From Lachnospiraceae bacterium (GTDB lineage: Bacteria; Bacillota; Clostridia; Lachnospirales; Lachnospiraceae): a stretch of DNA of 64,000 bases. Position numbers and translations under genes: made by a program. Of this stretch, positions 15,818 to 58,748 are shown piece by piece (position 1 is the stretch's first letter; each line of letters opens with the position of its first letter). The notes beneath the pieces were generated by a model. The model was not told the DNA's origin, made no database searches, and saw only the letters and a program-made list of their open reading frames with translations. The DNA is taken from NCBI GenBank assembly GCA_024691305.1, contig JAILNS010000015.1:1-64000 (forward strand), in the 5' to 3' direction.

Positions 15818-17983
15818 ATGACAGACAGTGAGCGGAAACTCGGTTTATTAAGGCTTGTAAACGGCTTACTTGTTTTTGTGTTAGTATTAACCGCTATACT
15901 AATAGGATTCGTGATAAAAGACGACTGGATAAGTCCGAGGGTGGATTATACGGTTTCGCTTGATGATGGATGGACACGTATAAATGCTGACGGAACCGAA
16001 GAAGAGGTATCAGGAAGATTCAGTATCGGAAAGACTGATCCGGTTACATTTTACAGGACTTTGCCGGATTTTATCGGATACAAGGATCTATTAAGGATCA
16101 AATGCCCTTATACTACCGTGGATGCATATATAGACGGCGAACTCATATATCATGCCGGTCCCGCAAAACTCGGTCATATAACTACTACGTTAGGTAATGT
16201 ATTTGCACTTATTCCGCTGGAAAGGGAATACGCAGGTAAGGATATATATATTACCGTAGAACCCAGGCATTATCATTTTGAGGTCATTATAAAGGACGCA
16301 GCGATCACCACGATGTCTACATATGCACTTATGAGAGTATATGAGTGCATACCTTATGGTCTGATCTGTGTGATCCTGATCATCATAAGTGTAATCTCGA
16401 TCGTTCTTTTTGGAGTATTTAAGGCATCATCCAGGATAAAACAAAATGATCTTTACAAGGGATTCTTTCATCTGGCCATGTTTGGCTTTAGTGCTGTTGC
16501 ATGGATAATCGCAGATTATCATATTGCGGGTATGCTGACGGGCAGGATGGTCTTATCGGGCATTATAAACTATATCGGTTTTATGCTCTGTCCGTTTATG
16601 TTTGCGGGTATCCTCATCCATGTATTCGGAAATAATAAGTTCTTCAGGATACTGTTTATTCTTTCCGAACTAAATTTTGTGATCCAGATGATCCTGTTTT
16701 TTGCAGGAATCATCGACCTGCCGGATGGCCTTATAGTATCGCAGTGTATCTCAATGCTGATAATCATAGGGATGGTTTATTTCGGCCTTACGATGATGAA
16801 GAATATGGCAGACAAAAATGTGATGCTTCTGGCACTTCCGACATCGCTGTTTGTTGTTTTTTCTTTTATCGCTGCGATCGCCTATGCTCTTAACGGGGAA
16901 TGGATGTTGTGCGTGGCGCTGGCAATGACGTTTTTTGCTTTTACCGTAATAACCTATCTGCTGATCAATCTGTGGGCTTCGCTAAAGACAAATATTGAAC
17001 TGGACCAGATCAAAAAGATAGCTTATCTCGATGATATGACAGGCCTTGAAAACAGAAGAGCTTATGATGATTACGTTGATGAACTGACCCAAAAAGCCGA
17101 GGCCGGTAACAAGGATATGCTTCTGTCTACCATAGTACTTGATGTTAACGGTCTTAAGAAGACAAATGATATATACGGACACGCCGCGGGAGATGAGCTC
17201 ATTATCGGCTCTTCAAACTGTATCAAGGAGGCTTTCGGAGATCTCGGAAGGTGTTTCAGGACCGGAGGCGATGAATTTGTGGTAATAGCCGATATGCCAT
17301 ATAAACAGTTTATAGAAAGAGCTCTGATCTTAAACGAAGGTCTTACGACGTGGACCGGTGAATACGTTAAAGGTATTTCAATTTCCCTGGGTAATGCCGA
17401 CAGAAATGAATTTCCGGAATTCTCCATTCAGGAACTGCTTGATATGGCTGACAAGCGGATGTATGAGAACAAGCAGAACTATTATGGGAGCCAGCTTATA
17501 GTGGACGATCCTTCGTACAGCACCGATCCCAATGATCCCAAGAGTAAACGTAAATTCCGCTATGTCGATAACTTTGCTCTTACCAAATATACCATGCCCA
17601 TCATACGTCAGATGGCGGAAGTCATACCGGGCGGTTTTTTCATATATCGTGAAGATTCAACCAGAGAACTCATTTATCAGAACAGAAAGGTACTGGAGAT
17701 ATACGGATGCAGCAGCCTCGACGAATTTAAAGATCTGACAGGATATACATTTAAGGGTATGGTTCATCCTGATGATTTTGACAAGATCCAGAATTCAATA
17801 GATAACCAGATCGATTCCGAACTCGGTGACGGAATGGATCATGTCATATACAGGATAGTCAGAAAGGACGGGCAGGTCAGACTTGTTGACGATTACGGCC
17901 ATTACAGTCATTCCCAGGACTTTGGAGATATATACTATGTATTTATAAGCGATATCACGGATACTCGAGGAAGAAATTATTAA
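15818..17983 (+). CDS. membrane diguanylate cyclase with C-terminal PAS
   Basis: 721 residues: an N-terminal helix (about 12-31), an extracytoplasmic beta-rich sensor (about 35-175), 7-8 membrane helices (about 180-385), a GGDEF domain (LDDMTGLENRRAYDD; intact GGDEF at about 483-487), and a C-terminal PAS-like domain (about 600-715, IPGGFFIYREDSTRELIYQNR, VHPDDF). The layout resembles 7TM-DISM sensors. It should make cyclic di-GMP. It starts 2 bases after malQ, which suggests that glucan metabolism and signalling are co-expressed. A terminator follows. Confidence 0.85.
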   Translation: MTDSERKLGLLRLVNGLLVFVLVLTAILIGFVIKDDWISPRVDYTVSLDDGWTRINADGTEEEVSGRFSIGKTDPVTFYRTLPDFIGYKDLLRIKCPYTTVDAYIDGELIYHAGPAKLGHITTTLGNVFALIPLEREYAGKDIYITVEPRHYHFEVIIKDAAITTMSTYALMRVYECIPYGLICVILIIISVISIVLFGVFKASSRIKQNDLYKGFFHLAMFGFSAVAWIIADYHIAGMLTGRMVLSGIINYIGFMLCPFMFAGILIHVFGNNKFFRILFILSELNFVIQMILFFAGIIDLPDGLIVSQCISMLIIIGMVYFGLTMMKNMADKNVMLLALPTSLFVVFSFIAAIAYALNGEWMLCVALAMTFFAFTVITYLLINLWASLKTNIELDQIKKIAYLDDMTGLENRRAYDDYVDELTQKAEAGNKDMLLSTIVLDVNGLKKTNDIYGHAAGDELIIGSSNCIKEAFGDLGRCFRTGGDEFVVIADMPYKQFIERALILNEGLTTWTGEYVKGISISLGNADRNEFPEFSIQELLDMADKRMYENKQNYYGSQLIVDDPSYSTDPNDPKSKRKFRYVDNFALTKYTMPIIRQMAEVIPGGFFIYREDSTRELIYQNRKVLEIYGCSSLDEFKDLTGYTFKGMVHPDDFDKIQNSIDNQIDSELGDGMDHVIYRIVRKDGQVRLVDDYGHYSHSQDFGDIYYVFISDITDTRGRNY

Positions 17984-48403: not shown

Positions 48404-48487
48404 GCGGAAGTGCTGGAACTGGCAGACAGGCTAGACTAAGGATCTAGTGTTGGAAACGACGTGAGGGTTCAAGTCCCTTCTTCCGCA
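48404..48487 (+). tRNA. tRNA-Leu(AAG)
   Basis: 84 nt class II tRNA with acceptor GCGGAAG/CTTCCGC, a long variable arm (TGTTGGAAACGACG) and T loop GGTTCAAGTCC. The anticodon stem CTAGA/TCTAG encloses CTAAGGA, giving anticodon AAG (A34, presumably converted to inosine). Its 3' end is the integration site of the downstream element. Confidence 0.9.
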
Positions 48488-48492
48488 GTAAG
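48471..48492 (+). repeat. attL core repeat
   Basis: 22 bases starting AAGTCCCTTC, identical to 58727-58748. It covers the T-arm side and acceptor end of tRNA-Leu plus GTAAG, so the tRNA remains whole after insertion. Confidence 0.92.
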
Positions 48493-48496
48493 TTTT

Positions 48497-48536
48497 AAGG
48501 CTGTTCGTGTAATTGCACTGACAGCCTTTATTTATT
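48497..48536 (+). terminator. element-supplied tRNA terminator
   Basis: AAGGCTGT pairs with ACAGCCTT (8 bp, with a short inner GTG/CAC), followed by TATTTATT. It lies immediately inside attL and replaces the tRNA terminator now displaced beyond attR. Confidence 0.75.
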
Positions 48537-48619
48537 GTATTTACGCGGGTTTCACTTCCTTCACTTTATTTATAACTCTTTACCTGATTGCATCTATATA
48601 CACCCTTTTTCGGTCAAAA

Positions 48620-48640
48620 AGTTGTCAAAAAGGTTGTCAA
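48620..48640 (+). repeat. left arm-type repeat
   Basis: AGTTGTCAAA followed by AAGGTTGTCAA. It matches the right-end copy at 58668 in 20 of 21 positions, same orientation. Each copy is itself a double of TTGTCAA. Confidence 0.75.
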
Positions 48641-48710
48641 AAAGAAGGTCAGAAACCTCGCATGAATACTGAAGATTCCGGGAATCGTTATTCTATAATA
48701 CTTTGCTGAA

Positions 48711-49397
48711 TTATGCCTTCGGTATATTCTTGAATAGATCATGCTTTTCATATACCCGCCTACACATATAGTAATGGTATAGATGCTGATAATTCCCCTG
48801 AAGAAGCTGATAATTCGTTTGTAGCCAGTCCGCAAAGTCTTTATATATTGCATGGCCTGTTTGTATTTTCGTGCGGTTTACAAGATCAGCCCAGTCTATT
48901 GTATTCCGGATATCACCCGCCTGATCCACGGACAACCCCTTGAACTCATATAGATACTTGTTAATCAATACAGCCATCTGTCTATTACGATTTTCAGCCT
49001 GTTCCGTTCTGCGCTCTCTGGATGCAATCTGACCGCGTTGCTGTGCTTCTTTATCCCTTCTATCCAGCTTCCTTTTATTCAGATCATTCACATATGCTTT
49101 CAGCTGTTCATAATTTCCTTGAAGTTGTTTATACTGTGCCTGTATCTGTTCTTTATCTGCCCGGAGCTGATTATTCTGTTCTGTTAAATCTGCAATCTTA
49201 TTTTCAAAAGCAGATAATAGAGAAGTGAAGCTTTCATAATCACTTTTACGCGCGTCAGTTTCATTATCCAAACTGATCTCGTGATCAGCCAAGAGATTGA
49301 ATAGATCGTTAGCTACTTTTGCTTTTCTTTCCAATAGTTTTCTATCATCATCAAAAATATCGCTAACCTGAGAAATGAGCTTATCAAAATCGACCAT
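48711..49397 (-). CDS. coiled-coil protein, element gene of unknown function
   Basis: 228 residues. A predicted coiled coil spans about 60-135 (ENKIADLTEQNNQLRADKEQIQAQ), followed by a helical C-terminal half. A short motif recurs (YKQLQGNYEQLKAY and YQLLQGNYQHLYHY). No enzymatic motif or membrane segment. It is the only gene on this strand at the left end, isolated from the other modules, so it could be cargo or an accessory regulator. I do not recognise a family. Confidence 0.65.
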   Translation of the reverse strand: MVDFDKLISQVSDIFDDDRKLLERKAKVANDLFNLLADHEISLDNETDARKSDYESFTSLLSAFENKIADLTEQNNQLRADKEQIQAQYKQLQGNYEQLKAYVNDLNKRKLDRRDKEAQQRGQIASRERRTEQAENRNRQMAVLINKYLYEFKGLSVDQAGDIRNTIDWADLVNRTKIQTGHAIYKDFADWLQTNYQLLQGNYQHLYHYYMCRRVYEKHDLFKNIPKA

Positions 49398-49536
49398 ATT
49401 AGTCCCCCTTTCACAGTGTCATTTAGTGAACTAAAAATACTTGTATAACAAAATTATCGCGCATGAAATTGACTACAGCAAGGCCATAGCTGGAAGCCTA
49501 TCCCTGTTGGATCTGAGTGCTTTCACGGCGATCTCA
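49398..49536. other. intergenic segment upstream of the sigma leader
   Basis: It holds the start region of the minus-strand coiled-coil gene (GGGGGACTAAT ribosome site in reverse). I see no further feature before the promoter at 49537. Confidence 0.5.
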
Positions 49537-49565
49537 TTGAAAAGAAACGCTATAAACTGTATAAT
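49537..49565 (+). promoter_or_regulatory. promoter of leader RNA copy 1
   Basis: TTGAAA, 17 bases, TATAAT. The 14-base ATAATTATGTAAAC that follows recurs at 52759 in the element. Confidence 0.75.
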
Positions 49566-49571
49566 TATGTA

Positions 49572-49666
49572 AACTGAATAAATACTATATACCTGATAGT
49601 ATTGAAACACGCTGAATGGGAGCACTCACAGATCGCAATGATCTGACTGTGTTCTTTTTCTTTTTT
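49572..49666 (+). ncRNA. structured leader RNA, copy 1 (upstream of sigma gene)
   Basis: Hairpin AATACTAT-ATACCTG-ATAGTATT (8-bp perfect stem), then GCTGAATGGGAGCAC, then a terminator hairpin (GAGCAC...CAGATC-GCAAT-GATCTG...GTGTTC) with TTTTTCTTTTTT, all within ~95 nt and ending just before the GAGGTGT ribosome site of the sigma gene. It matches copy 2 in layout and conserved blocks while the stems differ in sequence. The loop AUACCU could pair with AGGUGU at the ribosome site. Likely an attenuator; the ligand or protein is unknown. Confidence 0.65.
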
Positions 49667-49678
49667 GAGGTGTACTGA

Positions 49679-50548
49679 ATGAAAAATGAAGAACTTGTTG
49701 AACTGATTCGAAGCGGTAAGGATGAAAAGGACAATCTGGAAGCCCTTTACAAACAGAACATGGGCTTTATATGGCAACAAACAGCAAGATATCAGGGTAC
49801 TTATGAAGCTGATGATTTAATGCAAGAAGCTTTTTTCACAATGTATGATGCCATAATGAGTTATGATCCCGAACGCAGCGCATTTATTCACTGGCTTGGA
49901 TATTGCATACAATACAAGATGCCCCAACAACTATTAAAGCTGAATGATGTGAAAATGCCTGTAGCTATGCAGATGCGATTCTATTCCTATAAGAACTTTA
50001 GAAACAAATTCAAACAGGATCACGGTCACAGCCCTACAGATCAGGAATGTATTGAAGCACTTGATATATCTGATAAGGATATGAAGAAACTGAAAAGAAT
50101 TGAAAAGCTACTTGCTAAGGAATACTTATCAGAAACTATAGGTGAAGGAATCACCCTGGAAGAAGCTATCGCAGATGAATCTGATCTTTATCAGATAATA
50201 GAAGATGAAATCGATCATGATACATATATGAAATGGATCAATGAAGCAATGAAGGGATTAAGTGATAGACAAAAGACTGTAGTAAATCTCCGTATGAGCG
50301 GTAAGACGTATGCAGAGATATGCGAACAGCTATCTATCAAACACCGTCAGTCAGCACAACAGACAGAAAAGTCAGGACTTAGGAAAATCAGAGACAACCT
50401 ACAGAAATACGGAACTCTTCAGACGTTACATGATGATTTCTATAAAGGTGGTTTACATCAATTCAACAGAACATTCACATCAACTCCGGAACGCATAGTA
50501 ATCAGGCATCTATCACCACAGATGGATGATACAACGTGTGACGCTTGA
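49679..50548 (+). CDS. sigma-70 family RNA polymerase sigma factor (element-encoded)
   Basis: 289 residues. Region 2 is clear (YEADDLMQEAFFTMYDAIMSYDPERSAFIHWLGYCI), a region-3-like helical segment follows (KQDHGHSPTDQECIEALDISDKDM), and region 4 has LSDRQKTVVNLRMSGKTYAEICEQLSIKHRQSAQQ. A ~50-residue basic tail has no counterpart in ordinary ECF factors. Phages of Clostridia often carry such a factor before their packaging genes, so late-gene control is a reasonable inference. It is preceded by leader RNA copy 1. Confidence 0.85.
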   Translation: MKNEELVELIRSGKDEKDNLEALYKQNMGFIWQQTARYQGTYEADDLMQEAFFTMYDAIMSYDPERSAFIHWLGYCIQYKMPQQLLKLNDVKMPVAMQMRFYSYKNFRNKFKQDHGHSPTDQECIEALDISDKDMKKLKRIEKLLAKEYLSETIGEGITLEEAIADESDLYQIIEDEIDHDTYMKWINEAMKGLSDRQKTVVNLRMSGKTYAEICEQLSIKHRQSAQQTEKSGLRKIRDNLQKYGTLQTLHDDFYKGGLHQFNRTFTSTPERIVIRHLSPQMDDTTCDA

Positions 50549-50562
50549 ACACTTGCATTTTA

Positions 50563-50591
50563 TTGACGAAAAACGATTTAACAAGTATAAT
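50563..50591 (+). promoter_or_regulatory. promoter of leader RNA copy 2
   Basis: TTGACG, 17 bases, TATAAT, directly after the sigma gene; start near 50598. Confidence 0.8.
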
Positions 50592-50597
50592 AATAGA

Positions 50598-50688
50598 TGT
50601 AATTAAATACGTGCTGTAATACCTAACAGCACAAGTAATATGCCGAACGGGGGCACCATGAGAAACATATCTCACGGTGTCTTTTTTG
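50598..50688 (+). ncRNA. structured leader RNA, copy 2 (upstream of zinc-finger gene)
   Basis: Hairpin GTGCTGT-AATACCTA-ACAGCAC, then GCCGAACGGGGGCAC, then terminator GGCACC-a-TGAGA/TCTCA-c-GGTGTC with T6. The spacing from the AUACCU loop to the GCYGAA block is 17 nt against 16 nt in copy 1. The AAAGGAA ribosome site of the next gene lies after the terminator, so expression requires readthrough. Same architecture as copy 1 with different stem sequences. Confidence 0.65.
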
Positions 50689-50708
50689 TTTGTAAAGGAA
50701 TCCGGACA

Positions 50709-50951
50709 ATGATCAGTAAGAGCAAAATTATAAAGTGTTCAGTTTGTGGAAAAGAATATAAGAGCCGAGCCAATAACAGTAAGTATTGTTCATTGTATTG
50801 TATGGACTTTGCAAGAAGGCAGAAACGATCTTGTTGGATTGAATCACATCCGAACTACTACCGTGATTATATGCGACAGTATCGGAGACGTGATGCATCC
50901 CACATCAGAAAACAGGAACAGATTCAACTGAGCATAGGAGAACAAACATGA
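50709..50951 (+). CDS. small zinc-finger protein (FCS/MYM-like)
   Basis: 80 residues from the ATG at 50709, chosen because AAAGGAA precedes it and the ORF-track start (50640) lies before the terminator. IKCSVCGKEYKSRANNSKYCSLYCMDFARR gives CxxC and CxxxC, a treble-clef-like zinc knuckle; the rest is basic and aromatic (NYYRDYMRQYRRR). It resembles the N-terminus of the element's 52216 gene. Probably binds nucleic acid. Overlaps the next gene by 4 bases. Confidence 0.75.
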   Translation: MISKSKIIKCSVCGKEYKSRANNSKYCSLYCMDFARRQKRSCWIESHPNYYRDYMRQYRRRDASHIRKQEQIQLSIGEQT

Positions 50952-51541
50952 TCAAATCAATCGAGCAGACGGAACAAAGAATCAATGAAGTTATCTCAGA
51001 CCGCAAGAAAGACATAGCCGAGCGTGAAGCCCAGCTTGAAGAATCACGTAAGGCATTAAGTGAAGCTGAAGATAATATCAGCAAGGCTATCGAAACGGAC
51101 AACGCTGAACTTTACAGAAAAGCAAAGAAAGAAAAGGCAGACGCTGAAGATGATATTGAACTCAGAGAAAAGCGTCTTGAACTTCTGAAGAAACAACCGC
51201 TTATAGATCAGTCTGAATATAACAAGCGGTGTCAGGCTATCTTTACCGATCTTGATGCTATGACAGTAAGACAGCAGACTGAGATTGTAAAAATAGTTGA
51301 CCAACTAAAAGCTATCTATGATGAAGCAAATGAGAGCATTATCAAAGGGAATGAGATCCTTGAACGGTGGCAACGTGAAGTATATCGTAATGCAGACCGA
51401 AGCAAATCTCCGGAAGGTAAGATCATGAAACTATCCCATGAAACAATGCACTATAACAATTTTAATGTAACTACCTTTATAAGAAATCTATTGGAAGATG
51501 GATATTATCAGGGATTCCTTAATGCTCAAAGGGGGAACTGA
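50948..51541 (+). CDS. coiled-coil protein of unknown function
   Basis: 197 residues with a long charged coiled coil (about 1-85) and a helical C-terminal part (DLDAMTVRQQTEIVKIVDQLKAIYDEAN). It begins in the stop codon of the zinc-finger gene, so the two are translationally coupled, and the next small gene starts 2 bases after. No family recognised. Confidence 0.75.
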   Translation: MIKSIEQTEQRINEVISDRKKDIAEREAQLEESRKALSEAEDNISKAIETDNAELYRKAKKEKADAEDDIELREKRLELLKKQPLIDQSEYNKRCQAIFTDLDAMTVRQQTEIVKIVDQLKAIYDEANESIIKGNEILERWQREVYRNADRSKSPEGKIMKLSHETMHYNNFNVTTFIRNLLEDGYYQGFLNAQRGN

Positions 51542-51543
51542 AG

Positions 51544-51816
51544 ATGCTGAAGTTTAATGATAAAGGGATGCCGGTCTATACTGATCCATCATCTAAACTG
51601 ACAACAAGCATAAAGTTGTCTATTCTTGATACCGAACGCAGAGAACTTGAAAACAAGCGACAGAATGCAGAGGCTTGTATTCAGTCAGAACTCAAACAGA
51701 CTGAAGCGGATATGCGAGAAAAATACCGTGCTGAACTGGGTATAGGTGTAATGGGTGAATCTTCATATATGTCAGCCATGAAGGATTTTACAAGGTGCCT
51801 ATTATCTTCCAAATAG
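51544..51816 (+). CDS. hypothetical 90-residue protein
   Basis: It follows the coiled-coil gene by 2 bases with a GGGGGAACTGAAG ribosome site. MLKFNDKGMPVYTDPSSKLTTSIKLSILDTERRELENKRQNAE suggests a short N-terminal strand pair then helix. Function unknown. Confidence 0.65.
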   Translation: MLKFNDKGMPVYTDPSSKLTTSIKLSILDTERRELENKRQNAEACIQSELKQTEADMREKYRAELGIGVMGESSYMSAMKDFTRCLLSSK

Positions 51817-51834
51817 CAGAAGGAACATACTATC

Positions 51835-51993
51835 ATGCTGTCAATACTTGCAATATGTGGACAGTACATTGATAAGACACTAAAAGCACTAAATCCTCTA
51901 TATGCGACTGTTAATCATATTATTTCAGTATGTCAGAACAGTGATCCAACTAAGTTCGATAATCTTAACTTTCACACAGATGCTGATACTTGA
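51835..51993 (+). CDS. possible small protein, 52 residues
   Basis: Not in the ORF track. MLSILAICGQYIDKTLKALNPLYATVNHI with AGAAGGAA before the ATG, 18 bases after the previous gene. Only position and ribosome site support it. Confidence 0.45.
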   Translation: MLSILAICGQYIDKTLKALNPLYATVNHIISVCQNSDPTKFDNLNFHTDADT

Positions 51994-52215
51994 AGAAAAG
52001 CAACAGGATCACGGAGCAACGCATCACTCACACTGACACCAACCTCATACTACTACTTGCATATGACTGGATGCACTTTTGAAAAAATAAAAATACTATC
52101 CTCATACCTGGGGGGATGGTACCCTACCCATAGGGGCGGAGAAGTTCCCGCCGCACACTGTACATAAATGTCGAGACACTTGTTACAACGAAAACACACA
52201 TTATAAGGTGATACT
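51994..52215. other. gene-free region with GC-rich cos-like palindromic core
   Basis: No convincing ORF. Bases 52107-52158 stand out as GC-rich in an AT-rich surround: a G6 run, KpnI palindrome GGTACC, CCCTACCCATAGGGG and GGCGG-N8-CCGCC. A TGTCGAGACA palindrome lies 20 bases on. Such G/C-rich dyads occur at cos packaging sites of Siphophages near the small-terminase gene. That identity here is conjecture. Confidence 0.4.
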
Positions 52216-52752
52216 ATGAAGAAGATATGCCCTATCTGCAATACTGAATTCATAGCCGGAAAAGGAAACGTGAAATACTGTTCCCCTGAATGCCGTAGAA
52301 AGGCCGAATATGCCCGTCACAACGAATGGGCGACTCGTACTAACTATGCAGAGAAAAAGCGCGTAGAAATGCGTCAGAGACGCTTAAAAGAAGCAGAAGC
52401 ACACAGGGAACACCTCAGACAGATGCATGATGAACGTATAAGGCAGATTCAGGAAGATAATGAACGTGCTGATCAGGAGCTTCACGAACGTGCTGAAGCT
52501 GGTGATAATGAAGCACTGATGAAACTGGCTGAAAAGGCTGGTGATCGAGCTGGGTATTATAAATACTTTGCATTATACGAGATAGAGCGTGAAGAAAAAG
52601 ACTTCGGCCGGAGATCCACGCGGACTGTCAATGGAATAAGTGTCTATGATCCTGACTTCGCAGAACTTGTTATGAAGTCCATAGAGGAAACGGGCCAATG
52701 TATTAGCAAAATAAACGGACAAGGAATCAAGATTGATGCCATGCAGATATAA
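52216..52752 (+). CDS. zinc-finger coiled-coil protein, second element paralogue
   Basis: 178 residues. KKICPICNTEFIAGKGNVKYCSPECRRKAEYAR is a CxxC...CxxxC finger similar to the 50709 gene; then a long Arg/Glu-rich helix (about 45-105) and a C-terminal domain (TRTVNGISVYDPDFAELVMKSIEETGQ). AAGGTGAT precedes the ATG. It lies directly after the cos-like core where phages place the small terminase. Role unknown; nucleic-acid binding is likely. Confidence 0.72.
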   Translation: MKKICPICNTEFIAGKGNVKYCSPECRRKAEYARHNEWATRTNYAEKKRVEMRQRRLKEAEAHREHLRQMHDERIRQIQEDNERADQELHERAEAGDNEALMKLAEKAGDRAGYYKYFALYEIEREEKDFGRRSTRTVNGISVYDPDFAELVMKSIEETGQCISKINGQGIKIDAMQI

Positions 52753-52754
52753 AG

Positions 52755-52783
52755 TTGAATAATTATGTAAACCATTATATAAT
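52755..52783 (+). promoter_or_regulatory. promoter of a short transcript
   Basis: TTGAAT, 17 bases, TATAAT. The only thing downstream is a terminator ~30 bases on, antisense to the end of the repressor gene. Confidence 0.6.
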
Positions 52784-52809
52784 TATTGTATGGTAAGAAT
52801 CTTCCAAGC

Positions 52810-53553
52810 TTAAAGGCTGTCGCTGGTCTCCTCGGTGGCAGTCTTTTTTTTATGCTTCTCCACCTTATCTACAAGCCATTTTTGTATTGAATCCATCAAC
52901 GTACGTCGGAACAGTTTGACCGGATCAGGTAAAGTATATTGCATATAAGTTTCTTGATCAAAAAACATTACCTTATCAAGATCATCACCGTCACGGACTA
53001 TTCCAAAGGCTTTTACATCGTCTAAAGAATTGATGTGCTGAATGTTTTCAGTGTGTAAGTAATCATACATTACAGACAAAATAGGTTCGTCACCATTGTA
53101 ATCGTCACTCATATAGTTATGATCATACATATCTTCGAGGATATAATTGATCATAGCGATATGTTTCCATGAATGATTGTCAATGCCTGAGCCAAAACTC
53201 ATACCGCTTGATGTCTTGCCGGATGTTTCTTTTATTCGTTTTAATACTTCGATTGATTTACTACTTAGCCCCGTAATCTCAGATATCCTATCATATTCTA
53301 TAGTGAAATTTTTATATTTTGGCAAAAGCAGATACTCAGGATCAACTCCATAGAAATCACATATCGAATACAAGCTTTTCCATGGGATTGTTAAATCATC
53401 AGGGCTTAACCATTTATATATACTGGATATAGATACATCCAAAGCTTCAGCCAGTTCTTCATTCGTAGGCACTTTTCCGTTTATTTCTTTTCTTTTCAAG
53501 CCCTTAAATCTTTCAATAAATGTCTCTTTGATTCTTGTTTTATAATCATTCAT
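52810..53553 (-). CDS. HTH repressor of the element
   Basis: 247 residues. An N-terminal HTH (about 28-75, PTNEELAEALDVSISSIYKWLSPDDLTIPWKSLYSICDFYGV) of Xre/Cro type is followed by a ~160-residue effector region with no peptidase motif, so it is not a LexA-like self-cleaving repressor. AAAGGGAGAT precedes the ATG. Divergent from xis; by position it is the CI/Stl-like master repressor. How it is relieved is unknown; satellites often use a helper-phage protein. Confidence 0.8.
   Translation of the reverse strand: MNDYKTRIKETFIERFKGLKRKEINGKVPTNEELAEALDVSISSIYKWLSPDDLTIPWKSLYSICDFYGVDPEYLLLPKYKNFTIEYDRISEITGLSSKSIEVLKRIKETSGKTSSGMSFGSGIDNHSWKHIAMINYILEDMYDHNYMSDDYNGDEPILSVMYDYLHTENIQHINSLDDVKAFGIVRDGDDLDKVMFFDQETYMQYTLPDPVKLFRRTLMDSIQKWLVDKVEKHKKKTATEETSDSL
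52815..52851 (+). terminator. terminator overlapping the repressor 3' end
   Basis: GGCTGTCGCTGG pairs throughout with TCGGTGGCAGTC using five G-U pairs, then T8. It ends the 52216 transcript and lies inside the last codons of the convergent repressor. Confidence 0.8.
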
Positions 53554-53619
53554 TTTTTATATCTCCCTTTATTCCATTTCAATTATATGCTAATGTGCAA
53601 AAATAAAATTTTAAATCTA

Positions 53620-53648
53620 TTACAATTACAATACACCAAGAATAGAAT
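53620..53648 (+). promoter_or_regulatory. promoter of the xis-replication operon
   Basis: TTACAA, 17 bases, TAGAAT; start near 53655, inside the operator. Confidence 0.6.
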
Positions 53649-53653
53649 ATAAA

Positions 53654-53668
53654 CAAGGTCAGACCTTG
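53654..53668. promoter_or_regulatory. 15-bp palindromic operator
   Basis: CAAGGTC-A-GACCTTG is a perfect palindrome at the predicted transcription start between the divergent repressor and excisionase genes. Confidence 0.7.
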
Positions 53669-53716
53669 ACGCATAAAGACAAAGGAACGAAATGAAAAGA
53701 AAGTGAGGATAATTTA

Positions 53717-53920
53717 ATGCACAAAACAGCAATCTCTTTAGATTCCAATTGTCGGTATATGAGTATAGATAATGCTGTTACATATACCGGACTGGGAACT
53801 AACACCCTTCGGAAACTTGCGGAAGATGCCCAGGCGATCAGGCGCGTAGGCAGACGGGTACTGGTGGATAAGATAGTTCTGGATAAGTATCTCGAATCAC
53901 AGGCATCACAGGAGAATTGA
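53717..53920 (+). CDS. xis: excisionase-type HTH protein
   Basis: 67 residues, CRYMSIDNAVTYTGLGTNTLRKLAEDAQAIRRVGRRVLVDKIVLDKYLES, the MerR-like winged helix of Tn916-Xis/excisionase proteins. It directs integrase toward excision. First gene of the rightward operon, 1 base before the primase gene. Confidence 0.85.
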   Translation: MHKTAISLDSNCRYMSIDNAVTYTGLGTNTLRKLAEDAQAIRRVGRRVLVDKIVLDKYLESQASQEN

Positions 53921-53921
53921 G

Positions 53922-54470
53922 GTGATCAGCTTGGGAGACTTCAAAAAACAGAATCGAGATAATCTTCCTATCGGCATAAAGGAAGAAAAGCGATTCTTTC
54001 AAATGTACGCAACAAGGAAGAACGCTACTCCAAAGGGATGGAATGATCCTGATACATGGCTGGAACTGGAAGATATCCCAGATGATAAGCCTTTTGGATA
54101 TGTTTTGACCGACAGCCAGCTTTTAATCGATTTTGACCATATCTTTGATGATAACGGCAATATGGATGCAGAAGTCAGAAAGGTATATGAACGAATCAGG
54201 GCATGCGGTGATACATATACGGAGCTATCCATGTCCGGAAAAGGGCTGCATATGATTGTAGATCTGGGCGATTATGCGGACTGTTTTCAGCCTATAGTTA
54301 ATGATGATGATCATATTATCACACCAACTATGCCTATTGATGCATACAAAGCACTGACCAAAGAAGAAAAGGATAACACACCGAAAGTGGAATTATTCTA
54401 CAACTTGAAGGGCAAGTATGTATTTCTGACCGGAGATATATATGAAGGGGGCGTGAATCATGATCAGTAA
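53922..54470 (+). CDS. primase-polymerase (AEP/Prim-Pol) N-terminal part
   Basis: 182 residues from a GTG with AGGAG upstream. LLIDFDHIFD supplies the DxD metal motif and ELSMSGKGLHMIVDL the SGxGxH motif of archaeo-eukaryotic-type primase-polymerases found in plasmids and phages; KVELFYNLKGKYVFLTG is the late family strand. Usually this domain is fused to PriCT and a helicase; here it ends and the next ORF begins with PriCT-2, overlapping 11 bases in another frame. Confidence 0.78.
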   Translation: MISLGDFKKQNRDNLPIGIKEEKRFFQMYATRKNATPKGWNDPDTWLELEDIPDDKPFGYVLTDSQLLIDFDHIFDDNGNMDAEVRKVYERIRACGDTYTELSMSGKGLHMIVDLGDYADCFQPIVNDDDHIITPTMPIDAYKALTKEEKDNTPKVELFYNLKGKYVFLTGDIYEGGVNHDQ

Positions 54471-55947
54471 AAGTGAAATCGTAATAGGGGAAACATCTGC
54501 CGAGATATTCCGCGTATGTCTGAAGATGATTGATGAATGTCACGGAGACAAAGCGCCCGCATATATCGAAAAAGCATCCACTATCAAATGCAATCTTGAT
54601 GGAGCTACAAAAGAAGCCATCCTTGATGCCCTGAATTACATCAATCCTGATGATCGTGACACATGGATACATGTCGGCATGGCAATATATAATATCGGAC
54701 TTCCCTTCGATCTATGGGATAACTGGAGCAAAGGATCAGACAAGTATAACGATGGCCGAGATGAAAGCACATCTGATAAATGGAACGGGTTTATCCGGAG
54801 TAAATCACGCTGGAATGCTGGAACTATATTCAGACTGGCCAAGGATAGCGGATGGATTGATATCAGGGGAAAGAACAAAGCACCAAAAACAGAGATATCT
54901 ATCAGGAGTGTAAAAGATATTCAAGAATCTGATATCCCGCCTATCGGCTTTTCCGTAGCAGGCATCATTCCCAATGGATATACAGTCATATCTGCTGCTT
55001 TCAAAATCGGTAAATCATGGCTTGTTTTATGGATATGCACCCGTGTAGCACAGGGCTTACCAGTATGGGGCATGTCTACCGAGAAAGGAAGCGTATTGTA
55101 TCTCGATCTTGAAGGCTGTGAGAACCATACAAAAGAGAGAATCAATATGATATTACAAGGTGAACCCGCGCCCAGCAATTTCTATGTATCATATGATGCA
55201 CCAACGCTGGATGATGGCCTGATTGACTATCTTGATACAGCATATCAGCAGATTCCGGAGCTGAAACTGATTGTTATTGATGTACTGGCTATGGTGCAAT
55301 ATCAAACCAAACGGGGCGAAACAGCCTACCAGAACGACTACAGAACAGGAACAGCCCTAAAGCACTTTGCGGATGATAAAGGTATATCCATAGTGGCGGT
55401 CACTCATACAACCAAGAGCCTACACCCGGATGATATATTCATGAATACCACCGGCACAAATGGAGTGACAGCTTCAGCCGATGCAATTATCACTATAGCC
55501 AAGGAAAAACGACAAGATAACAACGCTCTTATGGCTATTACGGGCAGACGAGTGCGCGAACAGTATTTCAATATCCATTTAGATAGTAATTGTATCTGGC
55601 AACTTGATGGAAATGCCGAAGATTCTGAAGGCATATCAGAAGAATTGAAGCAACAGGCGGAATATGAAGCCAGTGAGATCAGAAATGCTGTCATTGCTGT
55701 TGCGATGAATGGAACTCAGGAGCTACGAGCCCGGAGCATAATCGAAAAGGCTTTCGATCAGGGGATCTATATCACCCAGAGTCCTAAGGATGTAGGACTA
55801 TTCATTCACAGGAATCAAGTTAGATTCATGAAATACGATAACGTGAAGATATCCATCATCAAAAATGGCCAAGGATCATCATTATACAGACTTGAAAACG
55901 CAGCCGGAATGGATCACAACCCGTTTATCGATACGATAACAACCTGA
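54460..55947 (+). CDS. PriCT-2 plus RepA-like RecA-fold ATPase
   Basis: 495 residues. PriCT-2 at about 45-130 (AILDALNYINPDDRDTWIHVGMAIYNIG, WSKGSDKYN), then an AAA_25/RepA-like helicase core (about 160-390) with Walker A AFKIGKSWLVLW, Walker B LKLIVIDVLAMVQ and IVAVTHTTKS. A C-terminal winged-helix-like part follows (about 410-490). With the upstream primase it would make a replication initiator and helicase. Iteron-like repeats begin 37 bases after its stop. Confidence 0.83.
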   Translation: MISKSEIVIGETSAEIFRVCLKMIDECHGDKAPAYIEKASTIKCNLDGATKEAILDALNYINPDDRDTWIHVGMAIYNIGLPFDLWDNWSKGSDKYNDGRDESTSDKWNGFIRSKSRWNAGTIFRLAKDSGWIDIRGKNKAPKTEISIRSVKDIQESDIPPIGFSVAGIIPNGYTVISAAFKIGKSWLVLWICTRVAQGLPVWGMSTEKGSVLYLDLEGCENHTKERINMILQGEPAPSNFYVSYDAPTLDDGLIDYLDTAYQQIPELKLIVIDVLAMVQYQTKRGETAYQNDYRTGTALKHFADDKGISIVAVTHTTKSLHPDDIFMNTTGTNGVTASADAIITIAKEKRQDNNALMAITGRRVREQYFNIHLDSNCIWQLDGNAEDSEGISEELKQQAEYEASEIRNAVIAVAMNGTQELRARSIIEKAFDQGIYITQSPKDVGLFIHRNQVRFMKYDNVKISIIKNGQGSSLYRLENAAGMDHNPFIDTITT

Positions 55948-55980
55948 TGCATGCATATTACCCACCCTATTACCGTTTAT

Positions 55981-56040
55981 TTTGTTGATTTTGTTGATAG
56001 GTGTCTATCTGGAATCAACAGTATCAACAGAATCAATAGT
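55981..56040. repeat. iteron-like repeats, candidate replication origin
   Basis: TGTTGAT at 55984 and 55993, then the complement ATCAACA at 56015 and 56024 and ATCAATA at 56033, all on a 9-base period, separated by GGTGTCTATCTGGA. Placed right after the RepA-like gene, as in satellite and plasmid origins. Confidence 0.65.
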
Positions 56041-56078
56041 GATATTTATACTACACCGCAAAGGCGGAGAAAGAGAGA

Positions 56079-56396
56079 ATGATTATGAATGACACAACTG
56101 AAAACAATTTCACAAAAGATCCAGCTACGCAAAGGGCAGAGTTTCTGAAACTTATGAGCGAAAATTGTGAGACTATCATCAAATCTCGCGAAGCTGTAAA
56201 ACAGATTAGAGAATTATTTGCTGAAGGGACGACATGCAGTATCACAGTGTATCAGGTAAATCAGGTTATAGAGCATTGCGATGTGTCTATCCTGCCAGAT
56301 ACTGTTCCGGGATTGATGGACTTGATTGAGACTGACATCCAGAATCGTGAAGCCCTTGTAAAAGATTTAGGCCGTCAGATATCAGAGGTATTATGA
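56079..56396 (+). CDS. hypothetical 105-residue protein
   Basis: AGGCGGAG precedes the ATG. Helical and acidic with a SITVYQVNQVIEHCDVSILPD segment; no motif recognised. Overlaps the next gene by 4 bases (ATGA), so it belongs to a small coupled pair downstream of the origin. Confidence 0.6.
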   Translation: MIMNDTTENNFTKDPATQRAEFLKLMSENCETIIKSREAVKQIRELFAEGTTCSITVYQVNQVIEHCDVSILPDTVPGLMDLIETDIQNREALVKDLGRQISEVL

Positions 56397-56584
56397 TGTT
56401 CCCTATTATAAACCAGCAACAGCTTGACGATGTAATGTCATCCCGGATCAGGCGCGAACGTGCCAAGATCCACCAGAAGCATGCCGAAGAACTTCAGCCT
56501 TTCATTGATAACCTTGACCGGATGCGTGATGATCTCATAGCACTCCGGGATAGATGGAAGGAAGCACGGGAAAATGATAGTTGA
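56393..56584 (+). CDS. hypothetical 63-residue coiled-coil protein
   Basis: MMFPIINQQQLDDVMSSRIRRERAKIHQKHAEELQPF is a charged amphipathic helix. Coupled to the previous gene. Unknown function. Confidence 0.55.
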   Translation: MMFPIINQQQLDDVMSSRIRRERAKIHQKHAEELQPFIDNLDRMRDDLIALRDRWKEARENDS

Positions 56585-56648
56585 TTTATGTTGTAACATA
56601 ACGTATAATTTATGTTGTAACAGAAATCTAACGGAAAGGAGCTGAAAA

Positions 56649-56840
56649 ATGTCACCACGAACGGGCAGACCTACCACAGATCCCAAGACTGTTCATGTTG
56701 GATATCGCATGAGCCCTACAACAGTACAGAAACTTGATGAATGTTGTGAAGCGCTTAATATGAGTAAGTCTGATATTATCCGTCTGGGAATCGAAAAGGT
56801 ACACGCGGAATCTTTCAAGATCGAGCGCAAAAATAAATAA
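56649..56840 (+). CDS. ribbon-helix-helix regulator
   Basis: 63 residues, SPRTGRPTTDPKTVHVGYRMSPTTVQKLDECCEALNMSKSDIIRLGIEKV, a CopG/Arc-type RHH domain with the common GRP N-terminal arm. AAAGGAG precedes the ATG. Such proteins regulate copy number or their own operon in small elements. Confidence 0.85.
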   Translation: MSPRTGRPTTDPKTVHVGYRMSPTTVQKLDECCEALNMSKSDIIRLGIEKVHAESFKIERKNK

Positions 56841-56878
56841 GCGGTCTGAATAGTTTGGCGACCATCAACCGCTTATTT
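56835..56878 (+). terminator. terminator-like inverted repeat after the RHH gene
   Basis: AAATAAGCGGT and ACCGCTTATTT (11 bp perfect) around a 22-base loop; the RHH stop codon lies in the left arm. Confidence 0.65.
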
Positions 56879-56887
56879 ACCCCGTTT

Positions 56888-56987
56888 AGGTAGATAACAA
56901 GAATCAGTCCACGGAGATTCCGAAGAATGACCTGATATCTTCTTTCATTCTAACGTATTTCCGTCACTGATTCAAGTTATCCCACCA
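56888..56987. repeat. ~100-base compound palindrome (cruciform or structured RNA)
   Basis: Nested arms in order: GGT, GATAAC (56893), GAATCAGT (56901), ACGGA (56911), AGAATGA (56924), then TCATTCT (56945), TCCGT (56960), ACTGATTC (56966), GTTATC (56976), ACC. About 29 bp can pair with small symmetric internal loops. It occupies the 57041 gene's upstream gap. Confidence 0.75.
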
Positions 56988-57040
56988 TTACAACTGAATA
57001 TGGAACGTAAAGAACAATAGTCTATATGAAAGGGAAAACT

Positions 57041-57340
57041 ATGGAACAGAATAGACAATATATTGCTTTTAACGTATCAAAAGAGGAAGCCCTTGCTGTT
57101 ATAGAACAGCTGGAAGCAGAACCGGGAACAAAGCGCTTCATTGATGGCCTGAAAACAGCCAAGACATTCAGACGCGCGAAAAATGGCGGACTACTCTCCA
57201 GTGAAGCCAAGTATCTGAGCGCGCGAGTGTATTCCGGAGCTGATGATCTGTATGATCTGATGGCCACTGCCTACAATATCGGATATCGCCGAGGATATCT
57301 TCAATCAGAGCGTAACCACAGAAAGGGGGCAAACTTATGA
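57041..57340 (+). CDS. hypothetical 99-residue protein
   Basis: AAAGGGAAAA before the ATG at 57041 supports this start over 57026. MEQNRQYIAFNVSKEEALAVIEQLEAEPGTKRFIDGLKTAKTFRRAK, then a helix-rich tail. Unknown; overlaps the next small gene by 4 bases and belongs to the integrase transcript. Confidence 0.6.
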   Translation: MEQNRQYIAFNVSKEEALAVIEQLEAEPGTKRFIDGLKTAKTFRRAKNGGLLSSEAKYLSARVYSGADDLYDLMATAYNIGYRRGYLQSERNHRKGANL

Positions 57341-57468
57341 AGCAGCTTCTATCAAGAATGATCCTGATACTGACATGGAAACGCATGGATGCTATTCAAT
57401 ACTATAACTATTGCAAGAAGCATGATATTCCGCTGGATGAAATACCGGAGAGAATGAAAGGAAGGTGA
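57337..57468 (+). CDS. small 43-residue protein upstream of integrase
   Basis: Too short for the ORF track. MKQLLSRMILILTWKRMDAIQYYNYCKKHDIPLDEIPERMKGR, with AAAGGGGGC before the ATG, which overlaps the previous stop. Its stop lies 4 bases before the integrase ATG. Confidence 0.6.
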   Translation: MKQLLSRMILILTWKRMDAIQYYNYCKKHDIPLDEIPERMKGR

Positions 57469-57472
57469 TTAT

Positions 57473-58585
57473 ATGGCAAGACAGAAAAAGCGTGCTGACG
57501 GGCGCTTCATGAAATATACCAAGTGTAATGGCAAGAGATACTATGTATATGGCCGGACTAAAGATGAAGTTGATGAAAAGCTGAATGAATTGAAAGAAAA
57601 ACTGAAGAAGGGGATCCAGGATCATGATGATCCTACTCTGGATAGTTTCCACGTTAGATGGACTGAGAACAGACGCGACAGCATAAAGGAATCAACGCTC
57701 AGATGCCAGCACTTCCAGTACAATAGCTGTGCTGATGTTCTTATCAATGGCAAGAGGTTAGGTGATTATAGACTGTCAGAGATCAAAGCGGATGATATCC
57801 GGCAAGTACAGAAAGCGCTTCAGAACAGTGAAAAGAAGAATCGAACACAGACTATAAATGATAAGATTGCTGTTCTATCTCATATCTTCCATGATGCACT
57901 GGTGGAAAGATACATTGATTATAACCCGTGTGTAGCTGTTAAACCGCTGAAGCGGACAGAAGAACGCGCAAGAGATACCATCCACCGGGCATTGACGATT
58001 GACGAACAGCAGACCTTTTTCCAAAATGCTGAGAAATCATATTATTATGATGTGTTTAGGATGGCAATTCTGACCGGAATGCGTATCGGAGAAATCGGAG
58101 CACTGTATCAATCGGATATCTATGATGATGCTATCCATATCGCGCGGACTATAACCAAGACCGAAACGGGCGGATATCAAATCGGTGAGGACACCAAGAC
58201 CATACACGGAAAGAGAACGATCCCCCTGAACGATCAGATCAGAGAGGTTATAGACCACCAGAAGCAAATCAATAAGATGCTGGATGGTGATAAGATCGTT
58301 GCTATGAACAGTCCGATATTCAAAGCACCGGAAAGAGGATTGCTGATGGCTACTCCATTAGATAGAGAAATCGGAAGGATATGCAAGAGGACAGGGATCG
58401 AAAAGTTTACAGCGCACGCTTTCAGGGCAACTTTTGCAACCAGGTGCATAGAACAGGGCATTGAGCCGAGAACACTACAAGAACTACTTGGACATGCTGA
58501 TTTTGGTATAACAATGAATCTATACGGACATGTCACGGATAACACGCTGGAAACAGCCATGAACAGCTTGAGCATAGCACTATAA
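57473..58585 (+). CDS. int: tyrosine integrase
   Basis: 370 residues. An N-terminal arm-binding domain (KKRADGRFMKYTKCNGKRYYVYGRTKDEVDEKLNELKEKLKKG), a core-binding domain (about 60-160) and the catalytic domain with Arg in LTGMRIGEIGAL, HAFR, LLGHADFGITMNLYGH and the tyrosine nucleophile in NLYGH. Tn916/phage-type. It lies at the right end and reads toward attR, with a GGAAGG ribosome site. Confidence 0.95.
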   Translation: MARQKKRADGRFMKYTKCNGKRYYVYGRTKDEVDEKLNELKEKLKKGIQDHDDPTLDSFHVRWTENRRDSIKESTLRCQHFQYNSCADVLINGKRLGDYRLSEIKADDIRQVQKALQNSEKKNRTQTINDKIAVLSHIFHDALVERYIDYNPCVAVKPLKRTEERARDTIHRALTIDEQQTFFQNAEKSYYYDVFRMAILTGMRIGEIGALYQSDIYDDAIHIARTITKTETGGYQIGEDTKTIHGKRTIPLNDQIREVIDHQKQINKMLDGDKIVAMNSPIFKAPERGLLMATPLDREIGRICKRTGIEKFTAHAFRATFATRCIEQGIEPRTLQELLGHADFGITMNLYGHVTDNTLETAMNSLSIAL

Positions 58586-58607
58586 ACAGATGATACCAGA
58601 GATAGAG

Positions 58608-58641
58608 AGAAGCGGGATAGACACAATGCCCGCTTCTTTTT
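58608..58641 (+). terminator. integrase terminator
   Basis: AGAAGCGGG/CCCGCTTCT (9 bp), 12-base loop, TTTTT. Confidence 0.9.
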
Positions 58642-58667
58642 ATGCGCTTTCATATAGTATTCGTAGA

Positions 58668-58688
58668 AGTTGTCAAATAGGTTGTCAA
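58668..58688 (+). repeat. right arm-type repeat
   Basis: AGTTGTCAAATAGGTTGTCA-type sequence, 20 of 21 identical to 48620-48640, 39 bases inside attR. Confidence 0.75.
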
Positions 58689-58726
58689 TCGTGCATAGAT
58701 GCTGATATATAAAGGGGTGTCAGACA

Positions 58727-58748
58727 AAGTCCCTTCTTCCGCAGTAAG
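58727..58748 (+). repeat. attR core repeat
   Basis: Second copy of the 22-base core, carrying only the tRNA 3' end. The bases just outside lead into the displaced terminator. Confidence 0.92.

Follow-up and report, generated by a model that had tools for sequence, protein, structure and literature searches.

The window, i.e., the whole 64-kb stretch of DNA analyzed here, belongs to a gut-type Lachnospiraceae chromosome and contains an integrated element of 10,278 bp (48471-58748). The element is bounded by 22-bp direct repeats (AAGTCCCTTCTTCCGCAGTAAG), one at the 3' end of a tRNA-Leu gene (attL, 48471-48492, + strand) and one at the far side (attR, 58727-58748, +). Its genes encode a sigma-70-family factor (49679-50548, +), a cI-like repressor (52810-53553, -), an excisionase-like protein (DUF6462; 53717-53920, +), the N-terminal part of a primase (53922-54470, +), a PriCT-2/AAA primase-helicase (54460-55947, +), a 63-aa protein (56393-56584, +) and, as the last gene of the element, a tyrosine integrase (57473-58585, +). 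Among the predicted proteins of the element, we found no convincing match to terminase, portal, capsid or tail families. With an integrase and att repeats, its own replication genes and no recognized capsid, portal or terminase, the element has the composition of a phage satellite. It departs from the strict PICI layout in that its integrase lies at the far end and on the strand opposite to the repressor; a divergent small regulator and replication genes, which are parts of this layout, are present.

The sigma factor gene is followed by genes for a 103-aa zinc-finger protein (50640-50951, +), a 197-aa coiled-coil protein (50948-51541, +) and a 90-aa protein (51544-51816, +) and, after a gap of 399 bases (51817-52215), by the gene for a 178-aa zinc-ribbon protein (52216-52752, +). 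No other 52-nt interval of the window is as rich in G+C as 52107-52158, which lies in this gap (0.67 vs. 0.42 for the window). The first-pass annotation of this DNA had likened the block to a phage cos site on account of four motifs, all of which we found in the sequence. For G6 (52110-52115), CCCTACCCATAGGGG (52122-52136) and GGCGG-N8-CCGCC (52135-52152), the + strand of the window has a single occurrence each; GGTACC (52118-52123) has nine occurrences in the window and is not informative. The proposed limits of the block describe a real GC peak, but the stretch that is probably functional reaches further 3', to about 52167.

Profile Analysis of the GC-Rich Site

We built a profile from 16 cos-region sites found in phages and satellites of Streptococcus, Lactococcus and Latilactobacillus, excluding the window. 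The best match of this profile in the 64 kb was 52111-52165 (17.3 bits, E = 1.7e-4), with the runner-up at 6.8 bits. When Lachnospiraceae sites were added and the window was still excluded, the window site scored 17.9 bits. With the first, window-free profile, 5000 dinucleotide shuffles of the GC-rich site gave no score above 5.0 bits. Scaled to the whole genome, the window-free E-value amounts to about 0.007, which is only modest, and the case therefore leans on position and synteny.

The profile and shuffle results already contradict explanations of the block by chance (as a GC-rich palindromic stretch), by an RNA structure or by a replication origin, and we regard these as barely credible. 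Three tandem hairpins are predicted for the block, and the primase/helicase of the element needs an origin. However, the hairpins fold no better than shuffled sequences (z about -1.2 to -1.5), so that the palindromic folding is unexceptional, and neither an Rfam match nor a repeat array or iteron-like repeats were found at the block. An RNA element was rejected on the grounds of the missing Rfam match and the nonsignificant fold. Further, the exact dyad pattern occurred at 33 loci in viral contigs, which are chance hairpins or coding DNA without further similarity, and CGCCGCACACTGTACAT at 3 loci, all unrelated; both were discarded as leads. The dyad noted in the first-pass annotation does contain palindromes, but these are not the part conserved in relatives, which share a G-run, followed after about 8-12 nt by a C-rich box, and then TTC(A/C)CGCCG and CACTGTACAT.

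The whole conserved region spans 52110-52167 (+) in a model that includes the window (R1). Its 5' half consists of the G-run and C-box (GGGGGGATGGTACCCTACC, 52110-52128, +), and in alignment A3 the G-run and CCC box are kept across 15 aligned sites. The presumed cosN (TTCCCGCCGCACAC, 52145-52158, +), whose nick positions we infer, is the equivalent of the annotated cos of phage SM1; the aligned core of the window, TTCCCGCCGCACACTGTACAT, corresponds to this SM1 feature, TTCACGCCGTCAC-TGTACAT. The alignment places the conserved box CACTGTACAT at 52156-52165 (+), a box that is nearly invariant in streptococcal and lactococcal sites and partly diverged in Lachnospiraceae sites. Fourteen other sites have 27 invariant columns, and the window agrees with them in 20. 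The G-run, C-box, TTC(A/C)CGCCG and CACTGTACAT all occur in the same order, spacing and orientation as in the cos of the r1t/SM1-type siphophages (Streptococcus SM1, Javan551 and LF1; Lactococcus r1t and C41431; Latilactobacillus TMW 1.1381 P1).

At the DNA level, BLASTN searches of phages with the site and with 51800-52800 yielded nothing relevant, and the surrounding gap has no DNA similarity to phages. A DNA search of 299 genomes of the family gave, besides the window itself, only short chance matches, and the papers listed by a literature search for the cos core as text were all unrelated.

The Same Region in Streptococcal, Lactococcal and Other Phages

In satellites and phages, most gaps before zinc-ribbon genes have a GC-rich island whose end is TTCACGCCGTCACTGTACATTTTTT or differs little from it. 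Searches of phage records retrieved 108 records with the Javan551 version of the region and 147 with the SM1 version, nearly all of them from Streptococcus, Lactococcus and Latilactobacillus. The motif lies between HNH and portal genes in phages of Streptococcus, Lactococcus, Latilactobacillus and Ligilactobacillus, and the order HNH-cos-portal was also found in a Ligilactobacillus ruminis genome and one IMG/VR contig. The portal (or first structural) gene is directly downstream of the site in SM1, r1t, TMW 1.1381 P1 and Javan263; in C41431, the site is upstream of the HNH gene, which precedes the portal gene. At least 26 named Streptococcus satellite phage records, among the matches listed, have the SM1/r1t-type cos region.

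In phage SM1, TTCACGCCGTCAC (15892-15904) is a "cos site" according to the annotation of the depositors. The linear record of S. suis phage Clyde opens before the HNH gene and closes before the zinc-ribbon gene, and about 36 bases of the cos region are absent at the junction, which fits the expectation if reads stop at the virion DNA ends. Phage r1t was reportedly published with 3' cohesive ends. The pneumococcal phage SpSL1 has confirmed cohesive ends but an unrelated cos, and was for this reason left out of the comparison.

The genes that flank the site in the window have counterparts at the cos of these satellites, and the order of a ~195-aa gene, a ~110-aa gene, the gap and a zinc-ribbon gene is common to both. 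The 197-aa protein is homologous to the product of the ~195-aa gene whose place in streptococcal satellites is two genes ahead of cos (hhalign E = 4.8e-12, 175 columns). The 90-aa protein, encoded directly upstream of the site, occupies the position of the ~110-aa satellite gene and shows weak similarity to its product (E = 0.05, C-terminus only). The 178-aa zinc-ribbon protein is a homolog of the post-cos gene product of streptococcal phages and satellites (phrog_2862), with ~24-29% identity over most of its length to the Streptococcus satellite-phage and Javan551-type proteins, and the aligned proteins have an N-terminal zinc ribbon and a C-terminal motif in common. In Javan551, the homolog sits between the HNH endonuclease and the portal protein; in the window, it begins about 50 nt past the site, i.e., the site has the position of a packaging module. 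HNH and portal genes are missing near the window site, as in satellites.

The 52216 gene had been assigned the position of a phage small terminase, and an identity as small terminase we could not sustain: its product matched no TerS family, and its matches were limited to phrog_2862, a family of unknown function, and zinc ribbons of the HNH type. Many, but not all, phages and satellites have the homolog after cos, and the gene is absent from SM1, r1t and two Lachnospiraceae prophages (G040 and G066, see below) despite the same cos. A search for the zinc-finger protein in genomes of the family and in GTDB contigs revealed no close relative. The product of the shorter zinc-finger gene (50640-50951), three genes upstream of the 52216 gene, shows N-terminal similarity to the same zinc-ribbon family, which suggests a duplication within the packaging block.

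Related Prophages and Satellites in Lachnospiraceae

The site model that includes the window was run over 397 Lachnospiraceae genomes and gave strong matches in G077, G066 and G040 and a weaker match in G163. G066 and G040 both have the site flanked by an HNH-type gene and an SPP1-type portal gene, and after the portal gene come genes for TerL, scaffold and capsid (gene identities with domains checked in G040). G344 contains a weaker copy of the site upstream of the same portal type, with the HNH gene further upstream. The prophage site of G066 has TTCCCGCCG in common with the window. The SPP1-type portal was found in 8 of the 397 genomes. The matching phage type occurs in the same bacterial family, in other genera. 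The first-pass proposal of a cos site had been made dependent on a match at packaging sites of phages from related hosts, and the prophages of G066, G040 and G344 provide such matches. Recovery of the site by the window-free profile, together with Lachnospiraceae prophages carrying this site type at the HNH-portal position, therefore supports the proposal.

An additional model match in G119 (22 bits) is located inside a host gene and was rejected. The G207 prophage (L190) encodes an HNH protein and the same portal type, and the cos profile finds nothing there; this prophage may have another type of cos. In G163, a partial cos-like stretch (L156, 5553-5600) stands isolated next to an integrase gene; neither phage nor satellite genes follow it, and it may be the relic of a satellite or prophage.

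The match in G077 belongs to a sister satellite consisting of genes for a repressor, an excisionase-like protein, a sigma factor, a 171-aa and a 119-aa protein, the cos and an integrase; from repressor to integrase, no portal, terminase or capsid gene was seen. Window proteins with homologs in this satellite are the integrase, the repressor, the excisionase-like protein, the sigma factor (E = 4e-29, with 30% identity across 292 aa) and the 197-aa protein, whose relative is the 171-aa protein (BLASTP E = 2e-4). A second, truncated copy of the sigma factor is also present in this element. In both Lachnospiraceae satellites, i.e., that of the window and that of G077, the sigma-70-family factor is encoded upstream of the packaging block. 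To our knowledge, sigma factors are unusual in phage satellites.

The site of G077 is the strongest model match of all, and no open reading frame (ORF) of at least 60 aa follows downstream on the same strand for about 1.6 kb. This observation bears on whether the conserved region, instead of being a DNA cutting site, could serve late-gene regulation or act as a promoter ahead of the portal operon, as might be supposed from the gene that lies downstream of it in all phages examined, from the ArpU-like activator gene nearby in phages and from the sigma factor of the element. Against this stand the lack of such an ORF after the strongest match, the annotation of the same sequence as cos by the depositors of SM1, and the record of Clyde, which opens at the site. 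We thus consider a promoter function highly improbable.

In the genus of the window, where the assemblies are incomplete, searches for terminases and cos over seven genomes and for the portal over three revealed no helper prophage and no second cos. Terminases of phrog_2 and PF03354 were not found in the seven genomes, searches that are not ideal because the helper-type TerL falls mainly into phrog_9; portal and cos searches are the better tests for a helper in the genus. Further, no phage with the core variant of the window (CGCCGCACAC) was found.

The site of the window has diverged from r1t/SM1-type cos. Its identity to 14 streptococcal, lactococcal and Latilactobacillus sites is 44-59%, its core has one extra base (CGCCGCACAC vs. 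CGCCGTCAC in relatives), and the T-rich TTTTTTCTCGCG stretch, located 3' in most relatives, is replaced by AAATGTCGAG. Together with the lack of a helper in the genus, and given that the partial site of G163 shows that relics exist, these differences could indicate a decayed remnant of a phage cos that the element no longer uses, moving, if at all, by other means. However, the att repeats are intact and the neighboring ORFs uninterrupted, and the G-run, C-box, TTC-CGCCG and CACTGTACAT are kept in order and spacing within a gap that has no similarity to phage DNA. Decay of the site therefore appears improbable to us.

Discussion

Sequence homology, position, orientation and synteny of the site, the occurrence of such phages in the family, and the lack of recognized packaging and structural genes in the element all point in the same direction. 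We consider it highly likely that the block is a diverged r1t/SM1-type cos, present in cis on a 10.28-kb satellite that is packaged by an r1t/SM1-like helper. Since it carries a diverged copy of cos, the element probably parasitizes phages by having itself packaged in the particles of another phage. Prophages of the type seen in G066, G040 and G344 are the candidate helper class. They resemble the window satellite in their cos type, theirs lying between HNH and portal; unlike the satellite, they encode the portal and, in G040 and G066, also TerL and capsid, and they reside in other genera.

By analogy with cos-type satellites, we propose the following course of packaging and transfer. In the presence of an active r1t/SM1-like helper, the satellite would excise and replicate by means of its own primase/helicase. 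The HNH endonuclease and terminase of the helper would then recognize the site, presumably cutting within TTCCCGCCG/CACAC, and the satellite DNA would be loaded into helper capsids as a unit or a small multiple. Helper genomes measure 31-40 kb in most of the phage records examined, about three times the length of the element, and therefore either a smaller capsid or a multimer would be needed. A speculative candidate for capsid-size control is the 63-aa protein (56393-56584), which may act as a scaffold mimic: its sequence is similar to the N-terminal 60 residues of the DUF4355-type scaffold found in those Lachnospiraceae phages that have the same cos (E = 7e-5 by BLASTP against a small database), and it has no match to a Pfam or PHROG scaffold family. 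More tentatively still, and with considerable doubt, one could envision an undescribed Lachnospiraceae satellite family defined by an r1t/SM1-type cos, its own sigma factor and a 63-aa scaffold mimic that redirects capsid size. The sigma factor of such a family would control genes of the packaging module or late genes of the helper.

If correct, the assignment places cos-dependent phage satellites in Lachnospiraceae, where our literature search found none described. The r1t/SM1-type cos profile would serve as a short sequence test by which phage-packaged satellites can be recognized among the anonymous integrated elements of Firmicutes and the helper-phage class be named for each of them.

Compared with r1t/SM1-type phages, the window shares the zinc-ribbon gene next after the site with a part of them, and differs in that its site is preceded by satellite genes and no HNH endonuclease. 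The cos sequence of cos-type PICIs (SaPIbov4/SaPIbov5, EcCICFT073) is that of another phage group. The window satellite is similar to these elements in carrying a cos without recognized packaging proteins of its own, and unlike them in that its integrase gene is not beside the repressor gene and no homologous operon-I genes were recognized. SaPIbov4/SaPIbov5 and, in E. coli, EcCICFT073 are satellites that carry the cos of their helper and depend on its packaging proteins (PMC5052747, PMC6092414).

Similarity is also seen with the Javan satellites of Streptococcus (e.g., Javan462, Javan395 and Javan218; PMC6813308), which are about 10-15 kb in size, contain integrase, repressor and replication genes, and have the ~195-aa gene, the ~110-aa gene, cos and the zinc-ribbon gene in the same order. 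Unlike in these satellites, the integrase gene of the window element is located at the other end, the replication genes differ and a sigma factor is encoded. The text of their defining paper (PMC6813308) does not mention cos or packaging; with the present assignment, many streptococcal satellites gain a packaging site. The streptococcal satellite records Javan739 and Javan544 have a portal gene after the cos.
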